From Persephonella sp. (GTDB lineage: Bacteria > Aquificota > Aquificia > Aquificales > Hydrogenothermaceae), in contig NZ_JALVTW010000037.1 of NCBI RefSeq assembly GCF_027023985.1, positions 1-61,318 on the forward strand: a stretch of DNA of 61,318 nt, read 5' to 3'. The notes below the pieces were generated by a model. That model did no database searches. It saw only the letters and a list, made by a program, of their open reading frames with translations, and was not told the DNA's origin. A program made the position numbers and the translations under genes. This document shows, in pieces, positions 50,002-61,318 of this stretch. Within the stretch, counting starts at the first letter, position 1; every line of letters starts with the position of its first letter.

Positions 50002-50030
50002 TTGAAAACTTTATGAAAAATTTCTATAAT
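50002..50030 (+). promoter_or_regulatory. Promoter of the Cas operon
   Basis: TTGAAA (50002-50007), exactly 17 bases, TATAAT (50025-50030). The expected transcript start is near 50037, just upstream of a GGGAGGG ribosome site and the TTG start of cas6, giving an untranslated leader of only about 12 bases. An in-frame ATG at 50013 lies inside this promoter and is therefore not the start. Confidence 0.8.
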
Positions 50031-50048
50031 TTGAGAGGGAGGGATAAA

Positions 50049-50786
50049 TTGAGATTAAAATTATCTTTTAGCTCAGATTTAGAATATATATCTCTGCCAC
50101 TGCATCATAACTACGCACTTCAAGTTATGTTATACAAAAATTTACCAAAAGTTCTTTCGGATTTCTTGCATGACATGGGATTTTTTTATAAAGGAAGACC
50201 TTTTAAACTATTTACTTTTTCCAAAATCCAGTCAGAACATTTTGTTCCTCTAAAAAAATTTAAAAAAATAAAATACAAAACACCTATTACTTTATTCGTA
50301 TCCTCTTCTATATCAGACATTACCAAAAATCTGGGAGAAACATTTATAAAAAAGGACAAAGTAATTTTAGGTAAAAATATCCTTTTCTTAGAATCTATAG
50401 AAATACAACCTTTGCCGGAATTTGAAGAAGAGTTTTATATAAAAACTTTATCCCCTATCACAGTTTATAGAACATTTGAAAACGAAAAGAAGTATTATAG
50501 ATACTACTCCCCACAGGAAAAAGAATTTAATGAGCTGATAAGAAAAAATCTAGCAAAAAAATACAATATCATCACTGGGGAAGAAATTGAAAATTTCCCT
50601 ATAGAAATAAAGCCTGAAAATATTAAAAAAGTTCTTTTCAAATATAAAGATTTTCCAATAGAGGCTTATGAAGGAATTTTCAAAATAAAAACAAAACCAG
50701 AAATGTTTAAAGTTATTTACGACGCAGGACTTGGAGCAAAAAACTCCCAAGGCTTTGGGATGATAGAGATAATGTCAGAAGATTAG
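50049..50786 (+). CDS. cas6: CRISPR endoribonuclease Cas6
   Basis: 245 residues. Cuts CRISPR precursor RNA within the repeat. The TTG start gives MRLKLSFSSDLEYI, the usual family N-terminus, and is preceded by GGGAGGG. His residues for catalysis are available in LPLHHNYALQ. The family's C-terminal glycine-rich loop is DAGLGAKNSQGFGMIEI. It is first in the operon and is the only Cas6 seen, so it probably serves both the III-B and I-B modules. Confidence 0.93.
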   Translation: MRLKLSFSSDLEYISLPLHHNYALQVMLYKNLPKVLSDFLHDMGFFYKGRPFKLFTFSKIQSEHFVPLKKFKKIKYKTPITLFVSSSISDITKNLGETFIKKDKVILGKNILFLESIEIQPLPEFEEEFYIKTLSPITVYRTFENEKKYYRYYSPQEKEFNELIRKNLAKKYNIITGEEIENFPIEIKPENIKKVLFKYKDFPIEAYEGIFKIKTKPEMFKVIYDAGLGAKNSQGFGMIEIMSED

Positions 50787-50828
50787 AATAAAAGGTGTTA
50801 ATAGTAGTAAAGAAAAAAAGGAGCTACT

Positions 50829-51680
50829 ATGGAAAAAATTACATTTGAATGTGAAATTATAACTCCGATGTTTATGTATGGTGGAGATGGGAAAACCTTA
50901 GAACTTAGGCCTTCCGAATTTAAAGGAATGCTTCGTTTCTGGTTTAGAGCTTTACATCCAGAATTGCCTATTCCAGAATTAAAAAGAAAAGAAAATGAAA
51001 TCTTTGGAAGTACTGATAGAAAGGGTAGTTTTAGGATAAAAGTAGAACAAATTACATCGATTTGTAGATATCACTTATTACCACATAAAAATAGAGCAAA
51101 CATACCTGCTTATGCCCCACATCAAAAGTTCAATATAGAGTTTTTATTTCAAAATCTAAAAAATAAAGAAACTATAAAAAATTTATTCATTTTATCAACA
51201 ATTATAGGTGGTTTTGGGAGAAGAAGCCGAAGAGGATTTGGAAGTATAAGAATATCAAGAATTAATAATACAGAGTTTGATTATGCAAATCTTCAATTTA
51301 TAGAAGGAATTCAAGAGTTAATAAAATCTATAAATCCAAATTTTAAATTTAACTTTAGAAAAGAGAAAAAGGAAGAAAATTATCCTTTTATTAGGAACGT
51401 AGAAATTGGAAATATAGCCTATAGTTCTTATGATGAAATCTTAAAACACATAGGGCAAATGACACATGATTGTAGATGTGGGAAAGCAAAAGTTTTTAGT
51501 AACATAGACCGATTTGTTTCTCCTTGTTATGTGTCAGTAATAAAGAAAGATAAAGAATATTATCCAATAATCACCTCATTGAATATAGCTCTACCAGACA
51601 ATCAAAAAGTATCGAAAGAACAATTGAATACAATTACAAATTTTAAAAATTCTATTCTTCAAAAGAAAAATCTATGCTAA
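50829..51680 (+). CDS. cmr1: Type III-B RAMP protein Cmr1
   Basis: 283 residues. Cas7-like RAMP subunit capping the 3' end of the crRNA in the Cmr complex. N-terminal TPMFMYGGDGKTLELRPSEF leads to the K-G-x-L-R-F-W motif FKGMLRFWFRAL and EIFGSTDRKGSFRI; a glycine-rich loop GGFGRRSRRGFGSIRISR is typical. Strong AAAGGAG before the ATG. Confidence 0.9.
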   Translation: MEKITFECEIITPMFMYGGDGKTLELRPSEFKGMLRFWFRALHPELPIPELKRKENEIFGSTDRKGSFRIKVEQITSICRYHLLPHKNRANIPAYAPHQKFNIEFLFQNLKNKETIKNLFILSTIIGGFGRRSRRGFGSIRISRINNTEFDYANLQFIEGIQELIKSINPNFKFNFRKEKKEENYPFIRNVEIGNIAYSSYDEILKHIGQMTHDCRCGKAKVFSNIDRFVSPCYVSVIKKDKEYYPIITSLNIALPDNQKVSKEQLNTITNFKNSILQKKNLC

Positions 51681-51695
51681 GCAGGGAGTAATTAA

Positions 51696-53540
51696 ATGGG
51701 TAAAGAATACATTTTCACATTCACTATCACACCTGTTCAAAGTTTTATATCGCAAGCGAGAAAAACAAGAGATTTATTTGCAGGAAGTCAAATTTTATCG
51801 GAATTAACGAAAGAAGCTGTAAAATTAGCAAAGAAAAAAGGTGCCGAAATTATAATGCCAAGTGGAGATTTAGAAAAAGCCCATTCGATTTCAAATAAAT
51901 TTGTTGTAGTATTTAAAAATGTGGTAGAAGAAAATTTAGAAATAATTGGCAGAGATATTGAATTTAGAACCCTACTCTACTGGAAAAACAAGATAGCCAA
52001 TGAAACCTTAAAAAATATAAAAGGAAAATATAAATCTATATCTAAAAATGAAAAAGAATTTTCATTAAAATTCAATGATCACATAACAAAATACTTCAAT
52101 ATCTATTGGCTTTTTTATCCGATAGAAAACAATTCTTACCAAAGCGCATATAAAGAAGCTGAAAAATATTTAGGAGCTATAAAAAACGTTCGATGTTTTG
52201 AACAGTTTGATACAGAAGAAAATCATAGAAAATGTTCAATATGTGGAGAAAGAGATGCAATTGTTTATAGAGATATTAAATTCAAAAAAAATGAGGGAAC
52301 AGAACCAGCATTTGTATGTAAAAACTCTTTACTACTTCCAGATAGCTATCTTATAGAAAACAATGAAGGTCTTTGTGGAATTTGCTTTGTAAAAAGGTTT
52401 TATAACAAGAACAAATCAGGAGAATTTCCATCTACAGCAAAAATTTCTTTTCTCAATGTCAAGAATAGGGCTTCAGATATACTAAAAAACAAATTAGAAG
52501 AATATGAAAAAGACTTAAAACAAGGGGAACTTTTCAACGAACAACTCTATTATGAGGAAAATTTAACTAAAAAATATTTCGAAGACTACGGTTTAAATAA
52601 AAATAAATTATCTGAAGCAAAGAATAAACTTCAAGAAATTTATCAATTAGCAAAAAAAGACAAAATACCAATAACCAGATACTATGCTCTTATAAAATTT
52701 GATGGTGATAATATGGGCAAATGGCTAAGTGGAGAGTATTTGAAAGATATGAGTAAATTAAAAGATTTTCATAAAGCTTTATCTTATAACTTGTTAAAAT
52801 TTGCGGAACATTCTAGAAAACACTTAGATGGCGAATTAGATGGAATACAAAGAGGCAAAACCGTTTACGCTGGTGGAGATGATTTTTTAGGTTTTATAAA
52901 TCTAAAATACTTGTTTGAGGTTTTAGAATATTTTAGAAAAGCATTTGATGATTTAGTAAATTGTCCATTAGTTTGCTATAAAAAGGAAAACAAAAACCTA
53001 ACCTTCTCAGCAGGAATAGTCATAGCTCACTACAAAGACCCATTAAGCCTTGTTTTAGATTGGGTTAATAAATTAGAAGAAGAAGCGAAAAGCTTAGATG
53101 ACAAAAACGCTTTTGGAATAGCCGTTCTAAAACGCTCAGGAGAAATTAGAAAAGCTATATACAAATGGGATAAGCTTAAGTATATACAAAATATATATGA
53201 AAGTATAGTTGTAAGTGAAGAATTCAATAGCTCATTTATAACAAAATTAGAAGAAAGTTTTAGGAAAATTTTTATTGATTTTTATTTATATGAAGAAAAA
53301 AATTTAGAGAAAGTAAAAGAACAAATAGAACTAGAAGAAAAACAAAATTTTATTCTTGCTGAAAGTAAAAGAGTTTTAGAAAGAAGCTGTAATATTTCTG
53401 ATAAAAAAGAAAAGAAAAAAGCAATAGGTTTAATGAATAATCATTTAAATCAATTAATAGATTACGAAAATTATAATCTTCAAAACTTTTTTGGAATGTT
53501 AAACATAATTAAGTTTTTAGAGAGGGAGATTTTAGTATGA
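51696..53540 (+). CDS. cmr2: Type III-B Cas10 (Cmr2) without HD domain
   Basis: 614 residues. Large subunit of the Cmr complex that senses target RNA and makes cyclic oligoadenylate. It begins directly with the first palm-side segment ITPVQSFISQARKTRDLFAG; the N-terminal HD nuclease domain found in longer Cas10 proteins (about 800-1000 residues) is absent. A zinc site is formed by C180/C183 (KCSICGERD) and C227/C230 (LCGIC). The second palm domain holds IKFDGDNMGKWLSG and the catalytic VYAGGDDFLGF (GGDD 393-396), so nucleotide cyclase activity should be kept while ssDNA cleavage is lost. Overlaps cmr3 by 4 bases. Confidence 0.93.
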   Translation: MGKEYIFTFTITPVQSFISQARKTRDLFAGSQILSELTKEAVKLAKKKGAEIIMPSGDLEKAHSISNKFVVVFKNVVEENLEIIGRDIEFRTLLYWKNKIANETLKNIKGKYKSISKNEKEFSLKFNDHITKYFNIYWLFYPIENNSYQSAYKEAEKYLGAIKNVRCFEQFDTEENHRKCSICGERDAIVYRDIKFKKNEGTEPAFVCKNSLLLPDSYLIENNEGLCGICFVKRFYNKNKSGEFPSTAKISFLNVKNRASDILKNKLEEYEKDLKQGELFNEQLYYEENLTKKYFEDYGLNKNKLSEAKNKLQEIYQLAKKDKIPITRYYALIKFDGDNMGKWLSGEYLKDMSKLKDFHKALSYNLLKFAEHSRKHLDGELDGIQRGKTVYAGGDDFLGFINLKYLFEVLEYFRKAFDDLVNCPLVCYKKENKNLTFSAGIVIAHYKDPLSLVLDWVNKLEEEAKSLDDKNAFGIAVLKRSGEIRKAIYKWDKLKYIQNIYESIVVSEEFNSSFITKLEESFRKIFIDFYLYEEKNLEKVKEQIELEEKQNFILAESKRVLERSCNISDKKEKKKAIGLMNNHLNQLIDYENYNLQNFFGMLNIIKFLEREILV

Positions 53541-54640
53541 AAATTCTAATAAACCCTTTTGATACACTGTTTTTTAGAGATGGCAAGCCCTTCTCTTTAG
53601 GAGAAGAAACCATAGCAAATACTTTATCATTACCTTACCCATCTACAATATATGGAGCGATATTATCTGCATATATCGCTCAAAACAACATACCTTTAAC
53701 TCAGGAAACTTTAAATGAGCTAAGGGAAAATTTAAAAATATTAAATATAGCGTTATACGACGAAATTACTAAAAATCTTCTATATCCCGCCCCATATGAT
53801 TTAGTTTCTAAAAGAGAAGAAAGTTATTCTAACTTATATCCTTTGTATCTGAATGATAGCACCCTATCTAATGTTAACTTACCTAAAATTCCAATGTTCA
53901 AAAATGGTAATGTAGAGAACTTTAAAGGATATATATATCAGCAAGACTTTAAAAATTATTTATCAAAAAATTCTGATGTAACAGATAAAGTTTCGACAAA
54001 TGAAATTATTACTTCTGAATACAAAATAGGTATTGGGATAAATCAAACTACCAATTCTGTGGAAGAAAGCAAACTATATAGAGTTCAATTAACAAGACTA
54101 AAAAATGAAGAAGACATAAAAATAAAAATTTTCGTTGAATTTGATGGATTAGACCTGAATGATGAAGGATATTTAAAGTTAGGTGGGGAAAATAAAGTAG
54201 TTTACTACCAACGTTTAAATGAAAATATCGATGAAGAAATTAAAGCTATAAATATAGACGGAAACTCTTCTATTTTTAAACTTTACTTGCTTACACCAGC
54301 GGTGTTTAAGAATGGATACTTAGCAGAATGGATGAATTCAAAAGAATTTCAAAAATTTAAACCTGATTGGTGTGATGAAGAGATCGAATTAAAACTTTTA
54401 TCAATATCCACAGGGAAGTATTTATCAATCGGAGGGTTTGATTTAAAAGAAAAAAGACTAAAACCCATGAATAGAGCTGTTCCTAGAGGAAGTGTATATT
54501 ATTTTGAGACTACAGAAACAGATTTCAGCAAAATTATAAGATGCTTTCATTTTAGAAGTATTAGTGAATTCAAAGAATTAAGGAAGCAAGGATTTGGAAT
54601 CACACTTGTGGGAAATTATATAGATAGGAGAGATAACTAA
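53537..54640 (+). CDS. cmr3: Type III-B RAMP protein Cmr3
   Basis: 367 residues. Cas5-like subunit that holds the 5' handle of the crRNA. The N-terminal motif NPFDTLFFRDGKPFSLGEE and LPYPSTIYGAILSAYIAQN are diagnostic, and the C-terminal part has MNRAVPRGSVYYFETTE. It overlaps cmr2 (ATGA) and the CARF gene (TAATG), with GAGAGGGAG before its start. Confidence 0.93.
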   Translation: MKILINPFDTLFFRDGKPFSLGEETIANTLSLPYPSTIYGAILSAYIAQNNIPLTQETLNELRENLKILNIALYDEITKNLLYPAPYDLVSKREESYSNLYPLYLNDSTLSNVNLPKIPMFKNGNVENFKGYIYQQDFKNYLSKNSDVTDKVSTNEIITSEYKIGIGINQTTNSVEESKLYRVQLTRLKNEEDIKIKIFVEFDGLDLNDEGYLKLGGENKVVYYQRLNENIDEEIKAINIDGNSSIFKLYLLTPAVFKNGYLAEWMNSKEFQKFKPDWCDEEIELKLLSISTGKYLSIGGFDLKEKRLKPMNRAVPRGSVYYFETTETDFSKIIRCFHFRSISEFKELRKQGFGITLVGNYIDRRDN

Positions 54641-56100
54641 TGATCGTAATAACAACAGTAGGTTCATCTTTAGTAGAAAATTTGTCTAGATTTTTAAACG
54701 ATAAAGAATTTGAAAAAAAGTTTACTAAAATTGAGAAATGTAAGAAAGAAGAGTTTACAAAAATACGAAGATTTTTAGAATACTTTAGGAAAGATAAAAA
54801 TTTAAAAGAAAAATATAGTAAAAATTGGATGGAAGACATTAAAAAGAAAGATATATATCGATATCTAAAAGATTTCTCTACACATTGTTTTCCAAATGCA
54901 AGTGCCGAACTTACAAGTCTTCACAAATTGAGAGAAAATTTAGATAAAGAAAACAAAAAAGATGAAGAATTAGATATCTATCTAATAATATCTGATACGA
55001 ATGAAGGTTATTTTGTTGGAGAAATTTTAAAAGAAGCTTTAGAAAGTGAAGGTATAAAAGAAGAATTAAAGATAAATAAAGTTGAACTTAAATATATTGA
55101 AGATTTAAGAATAGACAGCACAGAAACTTTTAAAAATGGACTTAACAATTTAATTGACACAATATATGAAGTTGTTGCAAAGGATAAAAACAATCAAACT
55201 GTATATGGAAGCGATGAAGTAATCTTTAATATCACAGGTGGATACAAAGGTGTTATACCGTATATATCTACAATAGCTCAGATTTTTTGTTATGAAGTAG
55301 TTTATACATTTGAAAGCATAGAAAAAGAAAATGATTTAATTTCTGTAGAACCTTTACCAATAGAATTAGAGAAAAGTTTATTAGATTTATATTATCCATT
55401 TCTAAAAAATTTAGATAAATTATCGGATGAAGAAAAAGGGTTTCTAATAAAAAAAGGTCTATTAGATGGAAATAAATTAACTCCTTTAGGGAAAATTTTA
55501 TTATTAACTTCTGAAAAAACTGTCTTTAAAGAAGATGCTTTTGGACAATTTGTAGAATATTTAGTCTATGAGTATTTTGTCAATCAATTTTTTAATAAAA
55601 AGTTTACGGAAAATAACTGTTTAGAAAATTTTACTTTTGAGAAAGTTGAAACCGGAAAATCTTTAGATATAGAAAAAACAGATATCGATATATATCTTGA
55701 AAATAGCGAAGAATTTGTCTGGATAGAAATTAAACCCATTACTTATCTATTAAAAGGAAAAAACTTTAAAAGTCTGATCAAACAAATCAAAAATAAACAA
55801 CTGATCGAATTAAATTTTCTAAAGAAAAAAATCCATAAATACATATTGACTTTGTATTCATTCAGTATTGATGAAAAATCCTGTAAAAATAAATTCAAAC
55901 TCATTAATGAAAATAAAATCTTACAGTTAGAGAAACTTTTTGAAAATAAAAAGGTAAAATTTGAAATTTGCTATTTCTGCCTATCACTTGCACCTAAAGA
56001 TATAAAAGAGGGAAAAATAACATCGAGAACTTATCAAAAACTTTTTAAAAATTTCAAATTAAAAAACTTACAGAATCTCAAAAACATTTTGGAGGAATAG
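54640..56100 (+). CDS. CARF-domain effector with PD-(D/E)XK nuclease (Can2/Card1-like)
   Basis: 486 residues. The N-terminal CARF domain starts MIVITTVGSSLVENLSRF and carries the ligand-loop motif FNITGGYKGVIPYIST (196-211), as in APE2256/Csm6-type sensors of cyclic oligoadenylate. A short winged-helix-like link (about 260-290, LTPLGKILLL) precedes a restriction-like domain with E306 (VEYLVYEYF), D348/D350 (KTDIDIYLEN) and E363-x-K365 (WIEIKP), i.e. a complete PD-(D/E)XK site. It is longer than the usual Can2/Card1 (about 370). It should be activated by the product of Cas10 and cut nucleic acid non-specifically. Placement between cmr3 and cmr4 is unusual for an ancillary gene. Confidence 0.85.
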   Translation: MIVITTVGSSLVENLSRFLNDKEFEKKFTKIEKCKKEEFTKIRRFLEYFRKDKNLKEKYSKNWMEDIKKKDIYRYLKDFSTHCFPNASAELTSLHKLRENLDKENKKDEELDIYLIISDTNEGYFVGEILKEALESEGIKEELKINKVELKYIEDLRIDSTETFKNGLNNLIDTIYEVVAKDKNNQTVYGSDEVIFNITGGYKGVIPYISTIAQIFCYEVVYTFESIEKENDLISVEPLPIELEKSLLDLYYPFLKNLDKLSDEEKGFLIKKGLLDGNKLTPLGKILLLTSEKTVFKEDAFGQFVEYLVYEYFVNQFFNKKFTENNCLENFTFEKVETGKSLDIEKTDIDIYLENSEEFVWIEIKPITYLLKGKNFKSLIKQIKNKQLIELNFLKKKIHKYILTLYSFSIDEKSCKNKFKLINENKILQLEKLFENKKVKFEICYFCLSLAPKDIKEGKITSRTYQKLFKNFKLKNLQNLKNILEE

Positions 56101-56103
56101 ATT

Positions 56104-57264
56104 ATGTTCAAAACAGCAATACCATTTTTTATAAGGGCAATAACTCCTGTCCATGCTGGGAGTGGGAATGATTTGGGAATTGTTGATTTACCTATACAAA
56201 GAGAAGGACATACAGGGTTTCCTAAGATAGAAGCTTCAACGCTAAAAGGAAGTATAAGAGATGCTTTTGAATTAGAAGCTAAAAGCAAAGAGAATGAAGA
56301 GGAAAAAATAAAAGAAGAAATAAAAATACACCTTATTTTTGGATATGATGGAACAAATGCAAGTAAAAGTATAAAAAAGTTTTTTGAGGAAGATTTAGAC
56401 TTCATCCAATTTTCAAGTTCAATAGCCTTTGCAGATGCAAGGATTTTGTTATTTCCTGTTAAATCTTTAAAAGGTGTTTTTGCTTATGCAACCTGTCCTG
56501 CTGTTCTAAAAAGATTAGAATCTGATTTAAAGATGGCTTTATTAACAAATGAAATAAAAATAGATGACAGAGAATTTAAGGCTGAAATCTATAAAGTTGA
56601 AGACGAAGGAAAAGCTCTTGTTTCCAACGAAAGTAAATTAATTGTCAAAGGAAATCAAGTTGTTTTAGAAGAATATTTATTTGAAGTTGAGAAAAAACAG
56701 GAAGTCTCTGAATTAGCTCAAACTCTATCAAAACTTACAGGAATAGAAGAAGATAGCTTAAAAGAAAGATTAATAGTTCTATCCGACGATGATTTTACAG
56801 ATTTTGTAAAGCTTTCAACAGAAGTTATAACAAGAATAAAAATAAATAACGAAACAGGAACAGTTGACCAAGGAGCCTTATTTACAGAAGAATACCTTCC
56901 AGCTGAAACTGTAATGTATTCAATAGTGTTTTTTTCTCCATTGTTTTTAGATAGGAGTAAGGATATAGAAGTAGAATCTGATAATAACTCCCAAAATTGC
57001 GAAGGTATAAAGAAAATTAAAAAAGACAATAAAACTTGTTTAACAGGAAAATTAGAAGATTTTATTAAGTGTAAAACAGATTTAAAAAATTTTGATGAAA
57101 ATGAAGTAAAAGATTTCTTTGAGAAAAATTTTGAAAAAGATGGAGATAATCTTAAAATCCTCCAAATCGGTGGAAATGAAACTATAGGAAAAGGATTTAT
57201 AGAAGTGAATTTGTTTAATAGTGAAGGAGGTCAACAAAAATGGCAACTGAATTATCAAATATGA
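56104..57264 (+). CDS. cmr4: Type III-B RAMP protein Cmr4 (Cas7-like backbone RNase)
   Basis: 386 residues. Backbone subunit of the Cmr complex that cuts target RNA at 6-base steps. RAMP motif ITPVHAGSGNDLGIVDLPIQ, followed by GFPKIEASTLKGSIRD; the catalytic Asp is expected at D28 in GIVDLP (D26 in Pyrococcus Cmr4). Later family features are LLFPVKSLKGVFAYATCPAVL and GGNETIGKGFIEV. TTTGGAGGA precedes the ATG. The last 25 bases overlap cmr5. Confidence 0.93.
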   Translation: MFKTAIPFFIRAITPVHAGSGNDLGIVDLPIQREGHTGFPKIEASTLKGSIRDAFELEAKSKENEEEKIKEEIKIHLIFGYDGTNASKSIKKFFEEDLDFIQFSSSIAFADARILLFPVKSLKGVFAYATCPAVLKRLESDLKMALLTNEIKIDDREFKAEIYKVEDEGKALVSNESKLIVKGNQVVLEEYLFEVEKKQEVSELAQTLSKLTGIEEDSLKERLIVLSDDDFTDFVKLSTEVITRIKINNETGTVDQGALFTEEYLPAETVMYSIVFFSPLFLDRSKDIEVESDNNSQNCEGIKKIKKDNKTCLTGKLEDFIKCKTDLKNFDENEVKDFFEKNFEKDGDNLKILQIGGNETIGKGFIEVNLFNSEGGQQKWQLNYQI

Positions 57265-57656
57265 AACAGAGTGAATTAAATAGAGCTAAGTTTGCTTATG
57301 ATTGTGTAAATAGTGTTTTAGAAAATAGTTCAGAAATACAAGAAAAGTATCAGTCTTATGTAAAGAAAATACCTACTTATGTTCAAGTTAATGGCTTAGC
57401 AGGAACCTTTGCCTTTATTTTTTCTAAAAAAGGTAAGGGGAGTGCTTCAAAAGAAGCCTACAAAATCATATATGAACAAGTAAATGACTGGCTTCGGCAA
57501 AACTATAAAAAAAATAATGATAGTGAACTTATGGAATGGATTATAAATCAAGATCCGAAATTATACAAAGCAATAACCATTGAAATTTTGGCTCTCTTTT
57601 CATGGCTCAAAAGATTCGCAGAAGGAATGATTGAAGGAGAAGAAAGCAATGAGTAA
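57240..57656 (+). CDS. cmr5: Type III-B small subunit Cmr5
   Basis: 138 residues, all-helical. Small filament subunit (Cas11-like) of the Cmr complex. Start chosen at the ATG after GAAGGAGGTCAAC, inside the end of cmr4. Typical segments are RAKFAYDCVNSVLEN, KIPTYVQVNGLAGTFAFI and the helix ending LALFSWLKRFAEGMIEG. Its stop overlaps the cmr6 start. Confidence 0.9.
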   Translation: MATELSNMKQSELNRAKFAYDCVNSVLENSSEIQEKYQSYVKKIPTYVQVNGLAGTFAFIFSKKGKGSASKEAYKIIYEQVNDWLRQNYKKNNDSELMEWIINQDPKLYKAITIEILALFSWLKRFAEGMIEGEESNE

Positions 57657-58827
57657 AGATAAAAAGATGGAAGGGATAATAAAAAAATTACTAAAAGAGA
57701 AAAAAATTGGATTTATAAAAGCGAAAGATATAAATCAGGACATATTCTTTCATTTCAATGATGTTAAAAATAAAGAATTTCTAAAAGAAGGTGCCAAGAT
57801 TTCCTTTAAATTAGAAGAAAATAAGAGAGGATATACGGCCAAAGAAATTTTTATTTTGGAACAAGAAAAGTACGTCAAAAGCAATCTAAATAATATTCTA
57901 AAAAATGAAGAGATTTCAAATTTTAATCTGAAGTTGAATAAATATTCTTATGCCAAGTTTATAATGAAAGATGAAAATACTATAAAAGATATTGAACTAA
58001 AATTGGATAGGATACCAAACCTCAACAAATTCTTGTCTGAAGATTTATACCATAAATTTATAAGTAGATATGTATCTGCGATAAAAAATTTAGAAAACAA
58101 TACACACATAGTAAGAGAAAAAAGATTTAAACCAGAATACAAACTAATCATAGGTTTAGGAAGTCCTTCTATTTACGAAGTTTCGATGACCCTTCACCAT
58201 ATATATGGTATTCCTTATATTCCTGGACAAGCGATAAAAGGAGTTTTAAGAAATTATGTAATAAATGCTTTTAAGTGTTTTAATTTGAATGAGGAAGAAA
58301 GATTAGAAATTGCAAAGAAAATTTCAAATAATAAAGAATTAAAAAATTTTGAAGAGTTAGGAAAAGAAGAAAGACAAAAAGTTTATAAAGAGACTTCTAA
58401 AGAAAAGGAAAACAAAGCATTAAAAGACGAGCTTTTTAAATTCGTTTTTGGTTCACAGGATAATCAAGGAAACATTGTATTTTTTGATGCTTTTCCAGAT
58501 GGAGAAATAACCATTGATATAGATATAATGAACAATCATTTCCCAGAATATTATGATAAAGGAAACCCACCAACAGACTGGCAAAAATTAAATCCAGTAA
58601 AGTTTTTAGTCGTAAAAAATACCCCTTTCAGATTTTTTATTGGAATGAAAAAAGGAATAAATATGCCACCTGATCTTAAAAAATTTGGTAGCGAGGAACT
58701 AATAACAACAAAAGATGAATTAATAAATTATATTTTTGAACTTTTAAAAGAAGCTTTAGAATTTAACGGTATAGGAGCGAGAACTTCTATAGGATATGGA
58801 TATTTAAGTTCTAATCAAGGAAGATAA
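57649..58827 (+). CDS. cmr6: Cmr6 with an N-terminal cold-shock domain
   Basis: 392 residues from the ATG at 57649 (AAGGAG nine bases upstream; overlaps the cmr5 stop). Residues about 6-70 form a cold-shock-type RNA-binding domain: RNP1-like KKIGFIKA (18-25), RNP2-like DIFFHF (31-36), then FLKEGAKISFKLEENKRGYT and AKEIFIL. A linker (about 75-160) leads to the Cmr6 RAMP domain with IPYIPGQAIKGVLRNYVI and the terminal glycine-rich GIGARTSIGYGYL. Cmr6 sits at the tip of the Cmr filament beside Cmr1, where the target RNA 5' side enters; an extra single-strand RNA binder there could help target capture. Fusion is seen directly; role is inferred. Confidence 0.88.
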   Translation: MSKDKKMEGIIKKLLKEKKIGFIKAKDINQDIFFHFNDVKNKEFLKEGAKISFKLEENKRGYTAKEIFILEQEKYVKSNLNNILKNEEISNFNLKLNKYSYAKFIMKDENTIKDIELKLDRIPNLNKFLSEDLYHKFISRYVSAIKNLENNTHIVREKRFKPEYKLIIGLGSPSIYEVSMTLHHIYGIPYIPGQAIKGVLRNYVINAFKCFNLNEEERLEIAKKISNNKELKNFEELGKEERQKVYKETSKEKENKALKDELFKFVFGSQDNQGNIVFFDAFPDGEITIDIDIMNNHFPEYYDKGNPPTDWQKLNPVKFLVVKNTPFRFFIGMKKGINMPPDLKKFGSEELITTKDELINYIFELLKEALEFNGIGARTSIGYGYLSSNQGR

Positions 58828-58829
58828 CA

Positions 58830-60524
58830 ATGCTAACAGCACTTAAAGACATTGGGCAGCTACTTTTAAATAGGGAAAATAAATCAGAGATAGATATTCT
58901 CCTTGAAAATCCTGATAGCAATGGAACATACAAAATAGTCTGGGCTTTAGAGTTTGATAAAAATTTTAACTTTAAAGGAATTTCTGTTGAAGAGTTTAAA
59001 GGAGAAAGCCCTTACCTCTATCTATATAAAAGAGCCTCTGGCTCAAATGCTCCAGATTTTTCTCCAACTTCAAGAGTTACAGAGGTAGAAAAAACATTTA
59101 CAAAGAAGCTTTTAAGATGGCTTAAAAATCATAAAAAATTTCCAGAAATTCAGAAAATCTATGAAGAGCTTACTAAAAACAAAGAAGAGATAGTAAAACA
59201 GCTTAAAGAATTAGACTCACAAACAAAAGATGGAAAAATTTTAACCCTGAAAATAGATGGAAAATATCTTTATGAGATAGAAAACCCAGATTTCAAAAAA
59301 ATCCTATTAGAAGATTATTTAGCAAAAATCAAAGAAATTTCTAAAAAAGACGCCATTTGTAGTGTTTGCGATGAGAAAAAGGAAGAAGTCTTTACTACTT
59401 CTTTGATTTATAAGTTTTATACACTTGATAAAGAATGCTACATAACATCAGGTTTTAGCAAAAAGAATGCATGGAAAAACTTCCCTATATGCCAGGACTG
59501 CTTTTTGAAAATAGATTACGGCAAAAAGTATGTTGAAAATAATCTCAAATTTAAATTCTATGGAAAACAGTATTATCTAATCCCAAAACTTATTCTAGAC
59601 ACACCAGGAGCCCTAGAAGAAATAAACGAAATCTTATCAATGGAAGCAGGAAAACTAACACTCTCAAAAGAAAAAAGAACAACCCTAACAGATGACAAAG
59701 ATGAGATTTTAGATATTTTGAAGGACTACAAAGATGTAATTAGCTTTTATTTCTTGTTTTTGAAAAAAGACAACGCAGCAGAAAGGATACTTCTTTTAAT
59801 AGAAGATGTTCTACCTTCCAGAATTCACAAAATCTTTGACGTTAAAGCTAAAGTTGATAAACTCTTTGGGCAAGATTATAACTTTGGAAGATTAGTAAAG
59901 TTCCTAAATGAATTTGATAAAACGCTTCTTGAAGTAGTTGATAAAATCTTTAGAGAAGGAAAGATTGATTTCAAAAACTTACTACAAATCTTTAACAGAA
60001 AATTAAGAGATGAGTTTTTAAATGGAAATAACTTTTCCTATACAGTGATAGACGCACTTATGAATGTCAGATTTTTAGAAGAACTTAGGTTAATAAATAT
60101 AGAGGTAAAAACTATGGAAGAATCAAAATTTGAAAAAGTTTATGAAAAAGTAGGCAATTCTTTAAACACACCAGCAAAAAGAGGAATATTCTTACTTGGA
60201 GCATTGACACAGATGCTTTTAAATATTCAAGGACAAGAGAGAGGAAATACGCCATTTTTCAAAAACCTAAAAGGCTTAAAAATGAACGAAGAAGATATAA
60301 AAGGATTGCTCCCAAAGGTTATAAATAAGCTAATGGAATATGGCAGATTTGACAGCGGTAAAAGAGAACTTGCAGAAGAAATTGCAAAAAACCTCTTATC
60401 TCAAGATAAATTTGGTTTAAGTATTGATGAGATAAACTTTTATTTTGCCAGCGGAATGGCTTTATCAAAAGAAGTTGCTGATATGGTTTATGAAAATGAA
60501 AAAGAAAATCAAACTAATCAATAG
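58830..60524 (+). CDS. cas8b: Type I-B large subunit Cas8b (Csh1)
   Basis: 564 residues. Large Cascade subunit for PAM recognition. The protein begins LTALKDIGQLLLNRENKSE and contains a zinc-ribbon pair ICSVCDEKKEE (C177/C180) and PICQDCFLKIDYGKKYVE (C221/C224), with a helical C-terminal part (VDKIFREGKIDF, FFKNLKGLKMNEED). AAGGAAG precedes the ATG. It starts only two bases after cmr6, so the two systems share a transcript. Confidence 0.85.
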   Translation: MLTALKDIGQLLLNRENKSEIDILLENPDSNGTYKIVWALEFDKNFNFKGISVEEFKGESPYLYLYKRASGSNAPDFSPTSRVTEVEKTFTKKLLRWLKNHKKFPEIQKIYEELTKNKEEIVKQLKELDSQTKDGKILTLKIDGKYLYEIENPDFKKILLEDYLAKIKEISKKDAICSVCDEKKEEVFTTSLIYKFYTLDKECYITSGFSKKNAWKNFPICQDCFLKIDYGKKYVENNLKFKFYGKQYYLIPKLILDTPGALEEINEILSMEAGKLTLSKEKRTTLTDDKDEILDILKDYKDVISFYFLFLKKDNAAERILLLIEDVLPSRIHKIFDVKAKVDKLFGQDYNFGRLVKFLNEFDKTLLEVVDKIFREGKIDFKNLLQIFNRKLRDEFLNGNNFSYTVIDALMNVRFLEELRLINIEVKTMEESKFEKVYEKVGNSLNTPAKRGIFLLGALTQMLLNIQGQERGNTPFFKNLKGLKMNEEDIKGLLPKVINKLMEYGRFDSGKRELAEEIAKNLLSQDKFGLSIDEINFYFASGMALSKEVADMVYENEKENQTNQ

Positions 60525-60548
60525 AAAAATTTTTAAGAGGTGATAAAG

Positions 60549-61318
60549 ATGAGTGAAACAATTAAAAACAGAAGGGAGTATTTATTTCTTTACGACGTAT
60601 CTTTTGCAAATCCTAACGGTGACCCAAATGACGAAAACAAACCACGAATAGACGAGGAAACGGGAAGGAATATTGTCACAGATGTTAGGCTTAAAAGAAC
60701 AATTAGAGATTATTTAAAAGATTTTGAAGGACAGGAAATATTCGTCAGGGAAATTTCAGATGAAGAAGGTAAAATTCAAGATGCAAAAGCAAGAGCAAAA
60801 GATTTTGACAATAATCCTGAAAGGATATTGAGTGAATGTATAGATGTTCGCCTTTTTGGTGGAACTATCCCAATTGAAACAGGTAAAAAGAAAGACAGTT
60901 CTATTACTTACACAGGACCAGTCCAGTTTAACATGGGGCAATCTCTTCATAGAGTAAAACTTGAGTTTATAAAAGGAACAGGTGCTTTTGCTTCAGGTTC
61001 AGGAAAAGAACAGAAAACTTTCAGAGAAGAATGGATACTTCCTTACTCATTCATAGCTTTCCATGGGGTCGCAAACGAAAACGCCGCAAAAGATACGGGA
61101 TTAACAGATGAAGATTTAGCATATCTTAGAAAAGCCTTGTGGGAAGGAACAAAAAATCTGATAACCCGCTCTAAAAATGAGCAAATGCCAAGGCTATTGA
61201 TAGAAGTTATTTATAAAGATGGCGTTCACTCACACATCGGGGAACTTCATAGATACATAAAAATAGAAAGCGATAAAAACGATGAAGAGCTAAGAAGCAC
61301 CGATGATTTTGTTTTAAA
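60549..61318 (+). CDS. cas7: Type I-B Cascade backbone Cas7 (Csh2), cut by the window edge
   Basis: The 256 residues visible begin MSETIKNRREYLFLYDVSFA and contain the family hallmarks ANPNGDPNDENKPRID, TDVRLKRTIRDYL, ECIDVRLFGG and TGPVQFNMGQSLHRV, typical of the Cas7 group of type I-B. AGAGGTGATAAAG precedes the ATG. The frame is still open at the right edge. cas5, cas3 and the adaptation genes would be expected further right. Confidence 0.92.
   Translation, partial: MSETIKNRREYLFLYDVSFANPNGDPNDENKPRIDEETGRNIVTDVRLKRTIRDYLKDFEGQEIFVREISDEEGKIQDAKARAKDFDNNPERILSECIDVRLFGGTIPIETGKKKDSSITYTGPVQFNMGQSLHRVKLEFIKGTGAFASGSGKEQKTFREEWILPYSFIAFHGVANENAAKDTGLTDEDLAYLRKALWEGTKNLITRSKNEQMPRLLIEVIYKDGVHSHIGELHRYIKIESDKNDEELRSTDDFVL

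Follow-up and report, generated by a model that had tools for sequence, protein, structure and literature searches.

A cold-shock domain ahead of Cmr6 in a type III-B CRISPR operon of Persephonella sp.

The Cmr6 protein of a Persephonella species carries a genuine cold-shock domain (CSD) on a tether, predicted to be flexible, before an ordinary Cmr6 core, all in one protein. The gene lies in a contig (NZ_JALVTW010000037.1, positions 1 to 61,318, forward strand; "the window" below, meaning the whole 61,318-nucleotide stretch that was analyzed) of a 1.9-Mb draft genome (38 contigs) of the phylum Aquificota, placed in the family Hydrogenothermaceae by its kinship to a named relative. Our leading reading, which we put somewhat short of an even chance, is that the CSD acts as an accessory module, tethered at the Cmr6/Cmr1 end of the complex, and aids RNA capture; both type III immunity and III-B diagnostics begin with capture of the target RNA. 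Of the new points, the most useful is a Cmr6 N-terminus that appears modular and repeatedly exchanged; no description of such repeated exchange was found in the open papers searched.

The fused gene and its operon

The cmr6 gene (57649-58827, +, stop codon included) is an open frame with no internal stop and encodes a single protein of 392 aa. Its ATG, at 57649, stands ahead of the cmr5 stop codon (TAA, 57654-57656), so that the two genes overlap by 8 bases, and a ribosome-binding site (GAAGGAG, 57633-57639, +) lies 9 nt before the ATG, inside the end of cmr5. Residues 7 to 67 (57667-57849, +) matched the Pfam CSD family (PF00313) with an E value of 2.1e-12 and 47.2 bits (cut-off, 27) when the full protein was searched, and residues 1 to 78 alone gave an E value of 1.2e-13, a match far above chance. 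A CSD search across the whole genome returned no more than two hits: a stand-alone Csp and the same stretch of the cmr6 N-terminus.

Both RNA-binding motifs of the family can be read in the translation. RNP1 (KKIGFIKA, residues 18 to 25; 57700-57723, +) has Ile in place of CspB Phe15, a site that holds Phe or Tyr in Csps, and keeps Phe17; RNP2 (DIFFHF, residues 31 to 36; 57739-57756, +) is intact and keeps Phe27, His29, and Phe30 of CspB, with Val28 replaced by Phe. Elsewhere on the CspB binding face, Trp8 and Phe38 are both Lys, and the domain therefore lacks the full aromatic set (Trp8, Phe15, Phe17, Phe27, His29, Phe30, and Phe38), which membership of the fold family does not require. Residues 1 to 75 are basic (pI 9.5; charge, +5.6). 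An AlphaFold model built with 32 relatives predicts five strands (residues 6 to 15, 20 to 25, 31 to 35, 50 to 58, and 61 to 69) with pLDDT values of 91 to 97 over residues 11 to 70, and Foldseek superposed the predicted barrel on CspA (PDB 2L15) at 1.7 Å with a TM score of 0.86 over the target. The sequence-only reading had proposed a CSD with these two motifs, joined in one frame to Cmr6; the profile match, the predicted five-strand OB barrel, the ribosome-binding site, and the overlap with cmr5 all agree with it.

A linker (residues 76 to 99; 57874-57945, +) with pLDDT values below 50 at residues 77 to 91 and 93 to 99 joins the CSD to the Cmr6 core. The core matched the Cmr6 equivalog TIGR01898 over residues 160 to 386 (E value, 1.9e-48; 165.2 bits; cut-off, 51.1) and contains a RAMP (Cas7-like) domain at residues 163 to 386 (58135-58806, +; PF03787, 4.2e-20); in Foldseek, this remainder of the model matched Cmr6 of Archaeoglobus fulgidus and Pyrococcus furiosus.

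The III-B operon is intact and occupies 50013-58827, with all genes on the + strand. Its members ahead of cmr6 are cas6 (50013-50786; TIGR01877, 2.2e-41), cmr1 (283 aa; 50829-51680; TIGR01894, 2.2e-18; PDB 9Z7Q Cmr1-MntA, over residues 2 to 178 only), cmr2/cas10 (614 aa, GGDD present; 51696-53540; TIGR02577, 3.9e-45; PDB 9ARW chain A, full length, 6.7e-90), cmr3 (53537-54640; PF09700, 2e-58; 9ARW chain B, 4.7e-56), a CARF-domain effector gene (54640-56100; PF09651, 7.2e-26), cmr4 (56104-57264; TIGR02580, 2.1e-69; 9ARW chain C, 4.7e-66), and cmr5 (57240-57656; PF09701, 3.9e-34). The genes cmr1 to cmr5, which adjoin cmr6, span 50829-57656. A profile search matched no HD domain in the Cas10 of the window. 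By eye, the C terminus of the CARF effector, which lies between cmr3 and cmr4, contains a PD-(D/E)xK nuclease-like motif (IDIYL...EFVWIEIKP); PADLOC matched this protein to CARF/Csm6 models only. Type I-B genes cas8b and cas7b directly follow the III-B operon, giving a block at 50013-61318 (+) with a single cas6 upstream, and the contig ends within cas7b. A simple scan saw no CRISPR array in the window.

An artefact of assembly or of the reading frame is a vanishingly improbable source of the fusion, and we reject it. Only the draft state of the genome speaks for it; the frame is open, the start is clean and preceded by a ribosome-binding site, the GC content of the CSD part (0.25) matches that of the rest of cmr6 (0.27), and the same CSD-Cmr6 architecture is found in independent genomes and in a homologue of solved structure in the PDB.

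Distribution and descent of the fused domain

Genome contigs were scanned, and 73 related loci of Cmr6 were recovered. A canonical CSD precedes the Cmr6 core in "Candidatus Loosdrechtia" (L040), Pelotomaculum (L062), bacterium UASB270 (L053), and a Bacteroidetes MAG (L052). A Bernardetiaceae MAG (L058) has a weaker CSD there, which scores under the Pfam cut-off. Further searches by phylum added one locus from the phylum of Pelotomaculum (L130) and two from that of "Ca. Loosdrechtia" (L172 and L168), all above the Pfam cut-off; in L168 (Planctomycetota), CSD, Cmr6, and Cmr1 follow one another in one frame. Judged from these sequence matches, the CSD-Cmr6 architecture has arisen or persisted in several groups, among them Planctomycetota, Bacillota, and Bacteroidota. 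Its share within the sampled phyla is small: counting genomes other than the seed genome of each search, it was found in none of the 19 genomes with Cmr6 in the Bacteroidota sample, in 2 of 15 of the Planctomycetota sample, and, within a Bacillota sample of 39 (about ten not read), once above the Pfam cut-off (L130) and twice in diverged form (L131 and L132). No viral carrier of CSD-Cmr6 was found in IMG/VR. Seven loci (L123 to L126, L164, L166, and L168) have Cmr6 frames of 750 to 870 aa, and the two that were profiled (L123 and L168) are Cmr6-Cmr1 fusions.

Aquificota are a largely thermophilic phylum, and "Ca. Loosdrechtia" is an anammox bacterium, generally taken to live at moderate temperature. 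The suggestion that the CSD tunes binding at high temperature is not favored, because the fusion also occurs in such organisms and nearly all Aquificota Cmr6 proteins are without a CSD.

On a tree of 164 Cmr6 cores, explaining the CSD label of the 11 fused rows takes 11 changes, seven of them forced by well-supported branches, and an 80-row tree under a mixture model gave the same count. A single clade of canonical CSD-Cmr6 cores was rejected (AU test, P = 8e-118; rows were picked by domain only, before the tree, which is limited by long branches and a small number of columns). A single early origin followed by many losses could also have produced the distribution seen in these sequences.

The fused CSDs themselves resemble one another. 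By alignment score, 8 of the 10 are closest to another Cmr6 CSD, with a small margin in other comparisons, and 9 score better with another Cmr6 CSD than with any of 12 stand-alone Csps, host Csps included, the exception being L058; the comparison took in Cmr6 CSDs and these 12 Csps, and the signature may extend to CSDs fused to other proteins. FFH within RNP2 is common to the fused CSDs (FLH in L058), Phe38 is gone in all of them, and Trp8 is gone in 9 of the 10 tabulated (exception, the diverged L042). These sequence comparisons point to a Cmr6-type CSD that probably moved from one Cmr6 gene to another, or was retained and often lost, more than to host Csps having been captured many times. 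A recent copy of the host's own Csp (L001) was considered and rejected (29% identity to L001 versus 41% to a CSD from a different Cmr6).

We judge it quite improbable that the CSD is a dispensable passenger, gained, decaying, and lost with little effect. Its scattered distribution, with as many changes as fused rows, would suit a passenger, as would a Cmr6 from the same genus as the window (L006) that has no N-terminal domain and one from the same family (L033) that has a degenerate module without RNP motifs. The fused CSDs share a signature, and most resemble one another more than they resemble any stand-alone Csp sampled, which would be unexpected for random captures, and recurrence across phyla with retained RNP cores speaks against mere decay.

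Other modules at the Cmr6 N-terminus

The CSD is one of several occupants of this position. A module of ~65 aa precedes 22 of the 164 cores, in bacteria and an archaeon, with the consensus KGKLxIxKxKxGK...GKxxxxP...LNGxxCExE...KIxVDGxEL (Pfam-less carriers: L037, L039, L044, L056, L063, L078, L085, L087, L091-L094, L100, L106, L112, L116, L133, L134, and L136). Three examples lacked a significant match in Pfam, and the examples searched against NCBIfam and PHROGs matched nothing there. The module of L094 is predicted to be mostly beta (strands at residues 2 to 11, 17 to 22, 46 to 52, and 55 to 61). Profile comparisons with the CSD were suggestive only, both for the Pfam-less module (P = 0.0025; probability, 12%) and for the degenerate module of L033 (P = 0.018; probability, 2.5%). 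In L059 ("Ca. Brocadia"), whose core is the closest to that of 9ARW, remnants of the Pfam-less module lie in a frame that is broken upstream. A short, helix-like N-terminal motif resembling SFxELAKxMGI stands alone in L006, L035, L043, and L065 and before the CSD in L053 and L052; it could be a docking peptide.

We regard the Cmr6 N-terminus as modular because close relatives have no domain there, a degenerate one, or an unrelated-looking module. It is conceivable, though we hold the chance to be clearly below even, that this N-terminus is a socket for small beta-rich modules, repeatedly swapped across bacteria and archaea, that would tune III-B target-RNA capture at the crRNA 3' seed. The swapped modules would then comprise a Cmr6-type CSD that lacks the customary Trp8 and one or more families absent from Pfam, NCBIfam, and PHROGs. 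Cas10 is HD-less in 21 of 22 loci with an N-terminal module, against 12 of 20 loci without one; independent pairs gave this link no support beyond ancestry, and we rejected it. The available Cmr6 proteins carry a CSD, a degenerate CSD, another module, or nothing, some of them within one genus or family, and the effect of an added RNA-binding module at the seed end can be tested on this set directly.

Proposed role and comparison with known systems

At the end of the complex that holds the crRNA 3' end, Cmr6 and Cmr1 form the cap (PMC5965380; PMC7192623). In the Cmr complex of Thermus thermophilus, this 3' end is exposed at Cmr1/Cmr6 and forms the seed for target RNA, and both subunits are required for target binding (PMC8376896). 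The architecture of L168, CSD-Cmr6-Cmr1 in one chain, places the CSD at the Cmr1/Cmr6 end. The sequence-only reading had offered, as one role for the domain, extra affinity for single-stranded RNA where the filament meets the 5' region of the target, and this possibility fits the known place of Cmr6 (PMC8376896; PMC5965380). Under the proposed mechanism, the tethered barrel would make a weak, sequence-unspecific contact with single-stranded RNA beside the seed, mainly with the incoming target, would raise local RNA concentration or affinity there, and might keep the target unpaired while the seed pairs. The CSD would be an accessory part, exchangeable in evolution and dispensable for some Cmr complexes.

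We count in favor of RNA capture the retained RNP2 and Phe17, the basic character of the CSD, and the full-length match to the 9ARW Cmr6, CSD included. Against it we count the lost aromatics and the relatives with no domain (L006) or with a module free of RNP motifs (L033). Affinity of the CSD may be low because Trp8, Phe15, and Phe38 are altered, and RNP-based binding seems not to be required at the Cmr6 N-terminus, since other Cmr6 proteins carry a module without RNP motifs there.

A serious rival, which we nevertheless consider unlikely, is that the N-terminal barrel is a protein-docking module, packing on Cmr1, on Cmr4/Cmr5, or on an effector bound to the complex head, with its RNA face secondary. 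The same place is filled by a canonical CSD, a degenerate CSD-like domain, the ~65-aa module, or the SFxELAKxMGI-like helix, and the binding face has lost Trp8 in nearly all fused CSDs and Phe38 in all, as docking would allow; conservation of RNP2 and Phe17 and the basic charge weigh the other way, and the predicted flexibility of the linker is more in keeping with a tether than with rigid docking. That the CSD holds the crRNA 3' end is improbable: a conserved groove of Cmr1 already serves this end (PMC5965380), and both the window and most CSD loci contain Cmr1. Aid to target capture by a tethered CSD remains our preferred reading.

The sequence-only reading knew of no characterized Cmr complex with such a domain, and here the PDB corrects it. 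A sequence search returned a protein named "CSD domain-containing protein Cmr6" (9ARW, chain H; deposited also under 9Z7Q, 9Z7V, and 9Z7X; E value, 4e-50), which matched the query end to end in two stretches (residues 8 to 206 and 252 to 387), CSD and core alike; 9ARW was not among the best 50 Foldseek matches of the Cmr6 model. The kind of fusion found in the window is present in deposited structures, and its discovery value is limited for that reason. No paper on the 9ARW-family complex or on a CSD-Cmr6 fusion was found in the open literature searched. In chain I of 9Z7Q, a Cmr1-MntA protein, a part resembling a nucleotidyltransferase antitoxin is joined to the Cmr6/Cmr1 end of that complex.

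The window protein shares with CspA and CspB the fold, length, RNP2, and part of RNP1 of its CSD; unlike CspB, which stands alone, it has Trp8, Phe15, and Phe38 replaced and FFH for FVH. Cmr6 of P. furiosus and A. fulgidus has the same RAMP core and the same end-cap place (PMC5965380), but the matched PDB chains are without the CSD of the window protein. The 9ARW complex resembles the window system most fully: CSD and Cmr6 form one chain in both, the Cas10 proteins are of similar length (612 aa in 9ARW), and Cas10, Cmr3, and Cmr4 of 9ARW are the best PDB matches of the window proteins. The two Cmr6 proteins are ~39% identical, and the core of the 9ARW protein groups most closely with a "Ca. 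Brocadia" sequence rather than with Aquificota. In 9Z7Q, 9Z7V, and 9Z7X, Cmr1 is a Cmr1-MntA fusion (438-aa chain), whereas Cmr1 of the window (283 aa) matches residues 2 to 178 alone of that chain and has a RAMP domain only.
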